This document shows positions 416 to 34,157 of a stretch of DNA of 35,286 bases, one piece after another. A program made the position numbers and the translations under genes. Location of the stretch: contig CAJOIA010000017.1 in assembly GCA_905234505.1 (NCBI GenBank), positions 1 through 35,286 of the forward strand, in the 5' to 3' direction. The notes under the pieces were generated by a model. The model was not told where the DNA came from, searched no databases, and worked only from the letters and a program-made list of their open reading frames with translations. Each line of letters starts with the position of its first letter. Positions within the stretch are counted from its first letter, which is position 1. Source of the DNA: an uncultured Selenomonadaceae bacterium (lineage in GTDB: Bacteria > Bacillota > Negativicutes > Selenomonadales > Selenomonadaceae).

Positions 416-2410
416 GTGGAAGATAAAAATTTGGATACGGAAGATTTGATTGAAGAAACTGACACTGCAAATATAGAAATTCACGTAGACGCCGAAAATG
501 CTAAGGTCGATGCTGTTGAAGGCGATTATGACGCTAATCAAATTCAAATTCTCGAAGGACTCGAAGCGGTACGTCTGCGTCCTGGCATGTATATCGGTTC
601 GACTTCTGAGCGCGGCTTGCATCATCTGGTTTATGAAGTTGTTGACAATTCCATTGACGAGGCGCTCGCTGGTTTTTGCACCGAAATTAACGTTACGATT
701 GAAAGCGACAATTCAATAACAGTCAGCGATAACGGGCGCGGCATTCCGGTTGATATGCACGAAAGCGGCAAACCAGCTGTCGAAGTTGTTTTGACAATGT
801 TACACGCGGGCGGCAAATTCGGCGGCAAAGGTTACAAAGTCAGCGGCGGTTTGCACGGCGTCGGCGTTTCTGTCGTTAATGCGCTTTCAAAATCTATGGA
901 GGTTGAAGTCAAGCGCGACGGCAAAATTTATCAGATAACTTTTTCGCGCGGCAATAACATGACGCCCTTGCACGAAATTGGAACTGCCACTGATACCGGT
1001 ACGCGCGTGCATTTCGTCCCAGATAACGAAATTTTCACCGTTACCAATTTTAATTATGATACGCTGAAATATCGCCTGCGCGAATTGGCTTTTTTGAATA
1101 GTGGCATTACAATTAATCTGACTGATAAACGCCCCGAAGGCAAACAACATAACTTCCACTTTGAAGGCGGCATTGTTGAATTTGTCGAACACCTTAACCG
1201 CAAAAAAATTAAAATTAATCCTACGCCAATTTATTTCAATGGTCGCCGCGACGACGCAGTTGTTGAAATTGCCCTGCAGTATAACGACAGCTACCAGGAA
1301 AATCTTTTTAGCTACGTCAATAATATTAACACCGAAGAAGGCGGCACGCATTTATCAGGCTTTAAAGTGGCGTTAACGCGGGTTGCGAATGATTTTGCTA
1401 AAAAATTGAATCTGCTGAAAAACGCTGATAGTACCTTGACAGGTGACGATGTTCGCGAAGGTTTGACGTGCGTTATCAGCGTGAAGTTGCACAATCCGCA
1501 ATTTGAAGGGCAAACTAAAACTAAGCTCGGCAATGCTGAAATTCGCTCATTGGTTAGCGCGGTCACGACGGAAGGGCTAAGTGAATTTTTCAGCGAAAAT
1601 CCGGCTATTACTAAGCAAATTCTTGAAAAATCTGTAATGGCGGCGCGAGCACGTGAGGCGGCAAGAAAAGCGCGCGAATTGACAAGGCGCAAAAATGCAT
1701 TGGAAGTTTCAAGCTTGCCTGGCAAATTGGCTGACTGCTCGGTTAAAGACCCCGATCAATCTGAAATTTACATTGTCGAGGGCGATTCGGCAGGCGGCAG
1801 TGCTAAACAAGGGCGCGACCGCAGATTTCAAGCGATACTTCCATTGCGCGGCAAAATTCTTAACGTCGAAAAGGCGCGCCTTGATAAAATTTTCGCCAAT
1901 GCTGAAATTCGCACAATGATAACCGCTTTTGGCACGGGTATTAGCGACGAGTTCGATTTGTCTAAACGGCGTTACGGCAAAATTATCATTATGACAGATG
2001 CTGATGTGGACGGCGCGCATATTCGCACCTTGCTTTTAACATTTTTCTACCGCTATATGAAGCCGCTGATTGAGCACGGACACGTTTACATTGCACAGCC
2101 GCCACTTTATCAGATTCGCAAAGGTAAAAATCATTGGTACACCTACAGCGACGAAGCTTTGACGAAAAAACTTGATGAAATCGGACGCGACGGCGCAACT
2201 GTCCAACGTTACAAAGGTTTGGGCGAAATGAACCCCGAGCAACTTTGGGAAACGACAATGAATCCTTCTGCGCGAACGATGCTCAGAGTTGACATTGAAG
2301 ACGCGCAAGAGGCAGACGAACTTTTTACAATTCTAATGGGCGATCAAGTTGCTCCGCGCCGACAGTTTATTGAAGAAAATGCTCTGCTCGTCAAAAATCT
2401 GGATATTTAA
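416..2410 (+). CDS. gyrB: DNA gyrase subunit B (GTG start)
   Basis: [114 protein letters not shown] upstream. Confidence 0.98.
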
Positions 2411-2411
2411 A

Positions 2412-3119
2412 ATGTTATCGACAAATAGACAGGCACTGGCTGACGGATTCCGCGACGGCATTCCAATAGGATTAGGTTATTTTGTAGTTTCATTCACGCT
2501 TGGAATTACGGCGAAACACGCGGGCTTGAATCCATTTCAAGGCTTTTTGGCAAGCTTGCTGAATAATGCTTCTGCGGGCGAATACGCGGGCTTTACAGTC
2601 ATTGCAGCTGACGCGCCATATATTGAAATTGCGATAATCACGCTGGTTGCAAACGCGCGCTATCTGTTAATGAGCACAGTTATGAGTCAAAAATTTTCGC
2701 CTGATACGCCATTTTACCACAGAATATTTGTCGGCTTCGACGTGACAGATGAAATTTTCGGCATTAGCATTGCGCGTAAAGGTTGGCTGAATCCATTTTA
2801 CAATTACGGCGCGATGTTAACGGCTTTACCAGGTTGGTCAATCGGCACGGCGCTGGGAATAATCGCGGGAAATGTTTTGCCACTTTCAGCAGTCAGCGCG
2901 CTTTCTGTGGCGTTGTACGGAATGTTTTTAGCAATAATAATACCGCCTGCGCGAAAAGATAAAGTCATAGGCGCGGCAGTGGCGATAAGTTTTGCAATGA
3001 GCTTTTTAGCAGAAACATTCTTAAGCGAAATATCGGCAGGAACGCGGACGATTATTTTAACAGTGGTAATAGCGGGCGCAGCGGCATTGCTTCACCCCGT
3101 CACGGAGAAAAATAAATGA
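2412..3119 (+). CDS. azlC: AzlC family branched-chain amino acid exporter subunit
   Basis: AFRDGIPIGLGYFVVSFTLGI-like start, LLNNASAGEYAGF, NARYLLMS; multi-TM; followed by AzlD-like ORF. Confidence 0.88.
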   Translation: MLSTNRQALADGFRDGIPIGLGYFVVSFTLGITAKHAGLNPFQGFLASLLNNASAGEYAGFTVIAADAPYIEIAIITLVANARYLLMSTVMSQKFSPDTPFYHRIFVGFDVTDEIFGISIARKGWLNPFYNYGAMLTALPGWSIGTALGIIAGNVLPLSAVSALSVALYGMFLAIIIPPARKDKVIGAAVAISFAMSFLAETFLSEISAGTRTIILTVVIAGAAALLHPVTEKNK

Positions 3120-3328
3120 AAGTTTTAATTTACGCTGTGCCGTCATTAGCGCTAATCGGTTTCGCCGCCACAACAATATTAAATTGGTTGCATTATGCAG
3201 AATACGTTGAAAGTGGAGGCTCTGCGCCATTTTCAGCGTTTGTTTTTGCGAATGTGATTTTGTATTTAATTCCTGCGGCGGTCGTGACTTTGACGCTGTT
3301 TTTGATTCGGCGCATTTTCGGGAGTTAA
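3116..3328 (+). CDS. Small two-TM hydrophobic protein of unknown function between azlC and azlD
   Basis: 70 aa ORF overlapping the azlC stop (ATGA) and ending 4 nt before azlD; MKVLIYAVPSLALIGFAATTILNW...FANVILYLIPAAVVTLTLFLIRRIF. Confidence 0.7.
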   Translation: MKVLIYAVPSLALIGFAATTILNWLHYAEYVESGGSAPFSAFVFANVILYLIPAAVVTLTLFLIRRIFGS

Positions 3329-3332
3329 TAAA

Positions 3333-3641
3333 ATGACGCACGAAATTTATATTTATATCTTAATAATGAGCGCAGTGACATTGGCGATAAAAATTTTGCC
3401 GCTGACGTTGATTCGCGGCGAAATAAAAAATGTGACATTGCGCTCGTTCCTGTATTATGTTCCGTACGTGACGCTGGCAGTAATGACATTTCCGGCGATA
3501 ATTTATGCGACACAGTCAAAAATTTCTGGCGGGTTGGCATTGCTGATTGGAATAGCAACGGCATTTTTCGGCGCGAGTTTATTCCAAGTGGCGGTTTTAT
3601 GTTGCGCGGTTGTTTTTATTAGTGAATTGTTTTTGATTTGA
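3333..3641 (+). CDS. azlD: AzlD family branched-chain amino acid transport subunit
   Basis: ILIMSAVTLAIKILPLTLIRGEIKNVTLRSFLYYVPYVTLAVMTFPAI is typical of AzlD; adjacent to azlC. Confidence 0.85.
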   Translation: MTHEIYIYILIMSAVTLAIKILPLTLIRGEIKNVTLRSFLYYVPYVTLAVMTFPAIIYATQSKISGGLALLIGIATAFFGASLFQVAVLCCAVVFISELFLI

Positions 3642-33523: not shown

Positions 33524-33537
33524 AAAAATTCACGCTC

Positions 33538-34014
33538 CTACTTTTCAGACCACTGGAAATAATCAGTGCCGACAATTTTTCTGAAAACAGATTTGCAGTA
33601 CGGGCAAACAAAATGGTCCATTGTGTTTGAAAAATCAGGCTTGCCATTGACAATTTGCACAGGACCGGCTTCAACAAAATCCATTCTGTCGCCGCAGCGC
33701 GGGCAAGGGCATTTACCGTCCGCTTCTCGTTTTAAAATAGTTGGCGGAATATCGCCTGTGGCAATTACGCGCTCTTGAGGCTTTCTTTCTTCGGGCGGCA
33801 AATCAAAAACGTTATAAAAGCCGGAGCGCAAAAGTTCTCGATAGAATACGCCGCAATGGTCGCAAACCTGGCGCGGCAAAGTAGCGTCCATATCAATTTT
33901 TCCGTCAATAATTCTGACGGGTCCACCTTCAACTTTGCGTAAATCTTTTTTGCATTTTGGGCAAACCAACTTTTTATTGGCGCCCATCTCCAATTTTACT
34001 AATCCCATCTTCAA
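33538..34014 (-). CDS. Double zinc-ribbon protein of unknown function
   Basis: CPKC...CDHC and CPRC...CPYC in two similar repeats (VEGGPVRIIDGKIDMDATLPRQVC / VEAGPVQIVNGKPDFSNTMDHFVC); start uncertain. Confidence 0.72.
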   Translation of the reverse strand: MKMGLVKLEMGANKKLVCPKCKKDLRKVEGGPVRIIDGKIDMDATLPRQVCDHCGVFYRELLRSGFYNVFDLPPEERKPQERVIATGDIPPTILKREADGKCPCPRCGDRMDFVEAGPVQIVNGKPDFSNTMDHFVCPYCKSVFRKIVGTDYFQWSEK

Positions 34015-34116
34015 TCACCAAAACATTTCTTAATTAGTAAAACAAACAGCTTAACTTCGCTGGATATTTCCACAAGGATTAATGTATTTCCTGCCGCACG
34101 GTTAATTTTTTGGCAA

Positions 34117-34150
34117 ATTAAAAGAGCCGCCGAATTTTCATCAGCAGCTC
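34117..34150 (-). terminator. Terminator downstream of the biotin carrier gene
   Basis: Minus strand GAGCTGCTG-atgaaaatt-CGGCGGCTC then TTTTAATTT. Confidence 0.8.
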
Positions 34151-34157
34151 TGCGCGA
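34150..34157 (+). repeat. Intergenic copy of the CTGCGCGA iterated octamer
   Basis: CTGCGCGA between the mmdC-like stop and its terminator; one of about 53 copies in the window. Confidence 0.6.

Follow-up and report, generated by a model that had tools for sequence, protein, structure and literature searches.

The window analysed here is contig C17 at its complete length of 35,286 bp, part of a 1.79-Mb draft genome (G000; 97 contigs, 94% complete). It carries, among other genes, gyrB, a DAHP synthase gene, murA, pfkA, ribD, birA and ftsH, and a single octamer, CTGCGCGA, recurs along its whole length. The gyrB gene was closest to that of Quinella sp. 2Q5 (85% amino-acid identity) and then to those of other rumen Selenomonadales/Veillonellaceae bins, which places the host, as a Quinella-like bacterium, in the Selenomonadaceae, Negativicutes. 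The octamer was examined in the window, in G000, in the genus (g1; 66 species genomes) and in a family comparison of 189 genomes, the metagenome-assembled genomes used being 60–100% complete. The distribution statistics are based on 368–431 kb of G000 together with whole-genome counts.

Abundance and placement of the octamer

The window contains 53 copies of CTGCGCGA, 34 on the plus and 19 on the minus strand, compared with 2.61 ± 1.69 in dinucleotide-shuffled sequences (maximum 7). It is the top-ranking octamer of the window, ahead of octamers consisting of A/T runs. A preliminary description of this DNA had given the same number of copies for each strand, and its list of positions was exact except for one copy placed at 6050, which in fact starts at 6040. 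Its counts of neighbouring octamers on both strands were all reproduced as well (CTGCGCGC, 6; CTGCGCGG, 2; CTGCGCGT, 1; ATGCGCGA, 3; TTGCGCGA and GTGCGCGA, 0 each). The whole draft holds 2,206 copies (1117 + 1089), while the reversed pattern occurs only 165 times (81 + 84).

In 368 kb of G000, the octamer was counted 426 times (1.16 per kb). The expectation from Markov models of order 2–4 was 13–27 copies (22.6, 13.0 and 17.4 for orders 2, 3 and 4 when the models were trained on motif-masked sequence), which corresponds to a 16–33-fold excess. The higher-order models thus failed to absorb the excess and, together with the neighbouring octamers, they bear out the earlier view that GCGC richness is no explanation. 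In the same 368 kb, the 24 octamers with a single mismatch totalled 367 against 329 expected, which is inside the range of the control octamers and, even summed, below the 426 perfect copies, and the counts of double-mismatch octamers equalled their expectation. As near-misses stay at background and only perfect copies are in excess, the signal is all-or-none across the 8 bp, with softer flanks in addition. In a literature search, nothing but unrelated sequence matches, e.g., primers, came up for the octamer.

When codons were shuffled synonymously within genes, 29.2 ± 6.3 copies were obtained in comparison with the 402 genic copies observed. All six gene frames were used (sense, 98, 62 and 37; antisense, 15, 93 and 97). 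This rules out a codon or amino-acid origin of the octamer, in agreement with the preliminary description, which had argued against codon usage and had named enrichment in one codon frame as the sign of such an origin; the enrichment is instead spread over the frames. The copies are oriented almost equally in relation to the genes (197 sense, 205 antisense) and to the local GC skew (195:193), the leading strand being taken from GC skew and gene direction. There is, therefore, no leading-strand polarity of the kind that had been said to favour Chi or FtsK-orienting polar sequences (KOPS) over uptake, and the 195:193 split rules out a strand-polar motif such as KOPS or classical Chi.

The copies are spaced more regularly than random, with a coefficient of variation of 0.89 against 0.98 in simulations. 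Only 13 gaps were shorter than 60 bp, whereas 31.9 ± 5.2 were simulated and none of the 2,000 simulations gave so low a number. The largest motif gap is an open reading frame (ORF) of 25.6 kb (8,520 codons; C1:15954-41513 of G000, running from L081:15954 to L083:1513), in which 1 copy was found where 30 were expected. This ORF has a match to RTX-type repeats and probably encodes a giant surface or secreted protein. Other long ORFs poor in the octamer also have RTX-type repeats, and one encodes a FliD-like protein. The octamer is depleted in such fast-evolving giant genes.

Conservation, dialects and loss

The consensus around the octamer is HCTGCGCGA (H being not G), with an A-rich stretch at −5 to −2 and, between about +8 and +19, an AT-rich one. 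G occupies position −1 in only 3–4% of the sites, and the favoured bases are A at −4 and +8 and T at −2 and +13. Column composition is at background beyond roughly −10 on one side and +20 on the other, which rules out a mobile repeat.

In alignments to two sister species (83–86% nucleotide identity), 140 of the 183 sites were intact (97/129 and 43/54), compared with 36–41% of composition-matched octamers. In the reverse view, 97 of the 107 copies of the sister genome G091 were shared. The column identity was 0.928 in the motif and 0.845 in the flanks (0.850/0.855 for permuted octamers), and it changed abruptly at the motif edges, from 0.86 at −1 to 0.96 at the first base and from 0.87 at the last base to 0.85 after it; no such step was seen with permuted octamers. 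At third codon positions, the identity reached 0.858 inside the motif but 0.697 outside (P ~1e-11), the values for permuted octamers being 0.702 and 0.692. These results indicate that the sequence is maintained as DNA, through either selection or biased replacement.

Among the 189 family genomes, CTGCGCGA was strongly enriched only in G000, G089, G091, G062, G078, G080 and G084. By DAHP synthase (88–97%), these species are the nearest relatives of the window's genome, and in the tree of this single gene they form one group (support 88/89). Motif discovery in sister species yielded CTGCGCGG in others, with genome-wide counts of 2,007 in G086, 1,926 in G075, 1,602 in G057 and 1,508 in G077 (controls, 194–329); in the window's genome CTGCGCGG is at background level. 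A further octamer, CTGCGCAG, was found at 477 sites vs 44 in G079 and at 80 vs 12 in G065. The CTGCGCAG of G079 is the only palindromic dialect, CTGCGCGA being non-palindromic. The dialects have their flanks in common: no G at −1, A-rich from −5 to −2 and AT-rich downstream.

Then, 39 CTGCGCGG sites of genomes with this GG dialect were aligned to G000, where 11 of them read CTGCGCGA and none CTGCGCGG. The terminal A-to-G change was seen at 11 of 99 aligned CTGCGCGA sites and at 6 of 340 permuted octamers (P = 0.0002). As CTGCGCGG sites align with CTGCGCGA sites, the two dialects are variants of a single system with sites in common. The CTGCGCGG dialect is probably the ancestral one, since it is present on both sides of the tree, the support of which is modest. 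No comparable octamer was seen in the other Selenomonadaceae genera, sampled at up to 20 kb each; at that sensitivity the motif is confined to this genus, and a family-wide motif is ruled out.

Two members of the genus lack the core altogether: CTGCGC is absent from ~100 kb of G076 and ~27 kb of G092, and GCGC is at 4% of the mononucleotide expectation in both. Both have an M.HhaI-like methyltransferase, recognized in G076 by comparison with solved structures (L275:431-2484 locus) and in G092 by a sequence closely similar to that of the G076 enzyme (L274:1436-2449). An HpaII-family endonuclease adjoins the methyltransferase of G076, yet CCGG is not avoided there. A GCGC-directed restriction system would purge the motif and is a plausible route to its loss in these two species.

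Avoidance of GGCC is extreme in nearly all sampled genus members, with an observed/expected ratio (O/E) of 0.02–0.04 in G000 and most close relatives, and in G000 an NgoPII-type endonuclease adjoins a HaeIII-like methyltransferase (C49, L270:649-2490). This GGCC-type enzyme was the sole match to the C5 methyltransferase family in G000, an assembly 94% complete in which adenine/N4 enzymes were not exhaustively searched; one N6-adenine methyltransferase seen in it is CcrM-like. GATC and CATG are likewise strongly avoided in many genus members.

A putative DNA uptake sequence and its alternatives

The preliminary description had suggested looking for com and type IV pilus genes, and these were found in G000: ComEA adjoining ComEC (L086:9152-12006), DprA (C7), a PilB/GspE-type ATPase (L100), PilT followed by PilC (L231) and a PilQ/GspD-type secretin (L198:10023-11345), as well as a separate Tad pilus locus (L096). 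Genus-wide, ComEC was present in 62 and the secretin in 64 of the 66 genomes. The comEC gene of G000 (L086:9152-11446) contains 7 copies of CTGCGCGA against 2.7 expected, which is not significant allowing for 299 genes.

The uptake signal sequence (USS) of the Pasteurellaceae is present at ~1 copy per kb with no orientation bias, regular spacing, AT-rich flanks and clade variants with a common core, and in both USS and the DNA uptake sequence (DUS) perfect copies outnumber near-misses (PMC1626085). The octamer resembles the Pasteurellaceae USS (Hin-USS AAGTGCGGT, Apl-USS ACAAGCGGT) in density, absence of orientation, spacing, sharpness, AT-rich flanks and clade variants; it differs in its core, in its weaker flank consensus, in having no non-coding enrichment and in belonging to Bacillota (Negativicutes) instead of Gammaproteobacteria. 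The Neisseriaceae DUS has several dialects, differing by one or a few letters, that follow clades around a common core (PMC3630211). Clade-wise dialects around a constant core and thousands of copies are also seen here, whereas the core is CTGCGC and not CTG within a 10-12-mer, there is no excess of inverted pairs, and a ComP-like receptor was not identified, the prepilin searches giving weak matches. As the USS hallmarks recur here point by point (PMC1626085) and the dialects follow clades as those of the DUS do (PMC3630211), an uptake sequence is the favoured explanation.

On the basis of this analysis, CTGCGCGA likely serves a Quinella-like genus of Selenomonadaceae (Negativicutes) as a self-specific DNA uptake sequence. 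Of the uptake, Chi and HIP1-type signatures that the preliminary description had put forward, this putative function is the best supported.

Beyond the motif with its statistics, conservation and dialects and most of the machinery genes, all documented above, we infer a receptor, preferential uptake and drive, which may work as follows. At the cell surface, a receptor (most probably one of the minor type IV pilins) would bind the motif on free double-stranded DNA, and pilus dynamics powered by PilB/PilT would draw the bound DNA inward via the PilQ-like secretin. Once in the periplasm, it would be retained by ComEA, ComEC would pass one strand to the cytoplasm, and DprA and RecA would recombine the incoming strand. 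If DNA fragments bearing a perfect motif are taken up more frequently, recombination would spread perfect motifs and replace damaged ones, and such molecular drive could account for the extremely sharp consensus and for evenly spaced copies without orientation at ~1 per 0.8 kb. A shift in the preference of the receptor would let sites convert by point mutation, producing the dialects: the apparently ancestral CTGCGCGG, CTGCGCGA in the window's clade and CTGCGCAG in one species.

To our knowledge, uptake 'self' tags are so far known only in two families of Proteobacteria. We think it fairly likely that the octamer represents another uptake-sequence system, the third to have evolved independently and the first from Bacillota, in a rumen lineage that bears an outer membrane, with at least three congeneric dialects, with switching visible at homologous sites and with loss where the GCGC core is avoided. 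If so, the addition of a case from another phylum to the two already known would show that uptake sequences evolve repeatedly. With some of the 66 species in the ancestral state and others switched, mixed or without the motif, the genus would form a natural experiment on dialect change, in which thousands of sites have to shift along with the receptor. Transformation would then also be a route of gene exchange among dominant uncultured bacteria of the rumen, and motif-tagged DNA would offer a handle for manipulating them genetically.

Several observations weigh against an uptake sequence. The octamer is denser in genes (1.17 per kb) than in non-coding DNA (0.93 per kb, estimated with a simple ORF caller), and inverted pairs at close spacing are few and not in excess. 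A preference for non-coding DNA and an excess of such pairs are usual in USS and DUS, although neither defines their function. The com and pilus genes are also present in the motif-less genus members G076, G092 and G068, and there is no mention of competence or of uptake in the Quinella genome paper. Prepilins were detected weakly: searches with Pfam and TIGR models gave two tandem sub-threshold matches on C15 of G000 (about 37.9–38.8 kb), and a prepilin pattern scan of the examined sequence had no match. In two sister species, matches of the C15 type exceed the TIGR curated cut-off, and G077 has a clear GFxxxE-type prepilin pair (L286).

Alternatively, the octamer could be a Chi-like hotspot where AddAB/RecBCD stops degrading DNA and turns to repair, with the variants reflecting an evolving enzyme specificity. 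Like Chi, it is a short, non-palindromic, dense and over-represented sequence that is conserved and depleted in variable DNA, and it has GCGCG in common with GCGCGTG, the lactococcal and streptococcal Chi site. We consider a Chi function unlikely in view of the even split between strands (195:193 against GC skew, 197:205 against gene strand); in addition, the palindromic dialect of G079 could not give direction, and Chi needs neither two-sided conserved flank bases nor even spacing.

A repeat that owes its origin or upkeep to a DNA methyltransferase together with methylation-directed repair would be like what is proposed for the highly iterated palindrome HIP1 of cyanobacteria (GCGATCGC), whose alternates accompany other methyltransferases (PMC4390886). 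The octamer is also GC-rich and highly iterated, and related octamers, one of them palindromic, substitute for it in sister species. HIPs are palindromes tied to methyltransferases, whereas this motif is non-palindromic in most species, its flanks are asymmetric and no fitting enzyme was found among the methyltransferases searched for in the 94% complete G000. The lack of a palindrome and the GGCC type of the only C5 methyltransferase found in G000 argue against a HIP1-type repeat, which is very unlikely here, and the type of this enzyme speaks in particular against a HIP linked to a C5 methyltransferase.

It is highly improbable that the octamer marks the chromosome for a defence or chromosome-organizing system, as a type I/III or BREX-like methylation target or a nucleoid or segregation motif. 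Any protein reading the chromosome could conserve a motif at synonymous sites, but restriction targets in the genus are avoided and not enriched, as GGCC is, and segregation motifs such as KOPS are strand-polar, which this octamer is not. A compositional or coding artefact of GCGC/CGCG richness plus codon choice is refuted, even though GCGC and CGCG are at ~4x the mononucleotide expectation in G000, by the excess over Markov models of order 2–4, the synonymous shuffle, the background level of one-letter neighbours and the GCGC-rich sister genomes that lack the octamer and prefer CTGCGCGG.

Copies in the window and minor observations

Table 1. Position, strand and, where assigned, genic context of the CTGCGCGA copies in the window.
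Position	Strand	Context
1076..1083	+	gyrB, frame 0: L-R
2268..2275	+	gyrB, frame 1
2947..2954	+	
4103..4110	+	
4456..4463	+	frame 2
5311..5318	+	
5672..5679	+	nirJ1-like gene
5782..5789	-	nirJ1-like gene
6040..6047	+	6050 in preliminary description
6412..6419	+	
6702..6709	-	
6905..6912	-	nirJ2-like gene
7178..7185	-	
7343..7350	-	
8386..8393	+	DAHP synthase gene
9668..9675	-	
9804..9811	+	
10330..10337	+	
11099..11106	+	
11620..11627	+	
12945..12952	-	
13722..13729	+	
13873..13880	+	intergenic
14024..14031	-	
16077..16084	+	murA
16842..16849	-	murA
18181..18188	-	pfkA, minus-strand gene
19122..19129	+	
19731..19738	+	
20181..20188	-	
20586..20593	+	
21509..21516	+	
21959..21966	-	
22170..22177	-	
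22349..22356	+	intergenic
24287..24294	+	ribD
24585..24592	+	ribD
24941..24948	-	ribD
25444..25451	+	
25610..25617	+	
25797..25804	-	
25931..25938	+	
26326..26333	+	birA
26557..26564	-	birA
27924..27931	+	
28200..28207	+	ftsH, minus-strand gene
29196..29203	+	ftsH
30567..30574	+	
30734..30741	-	
31029..31036	-	
31219..31226	+	
32958..32965	-	
34150..34157	+	

The nirJ1- and nirJ2-like radical SAM genes lie side by side at 5605-7790 of the window, and the GC skew flips from plus to minus at about 26000, where the genes change to the minus strand. A second tier of enriched words was seen in the window: GCTGAAAA/TGCTGAAA with 24–27 copies against 3–4 expected (order-1 model), and AATTCTGC with 18 copies against 2.8 expected.

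Dispersed short repeats were also noticed in relatives, namely CTATTCCC/AGGGAATAG in G062 (13 copies in 47 kb; L105, L106, L143) and AGGAACTAG in G075 (9 copies in 40 kb; L170, L171). In the low-GC relative G065 (L113, L114, L158, L159, L240), GATC is over-represented (O/E 2.8), and the CGATCG-containing octamers AACGATCG and CGATCGAA are enriched in a HIP-like manner.

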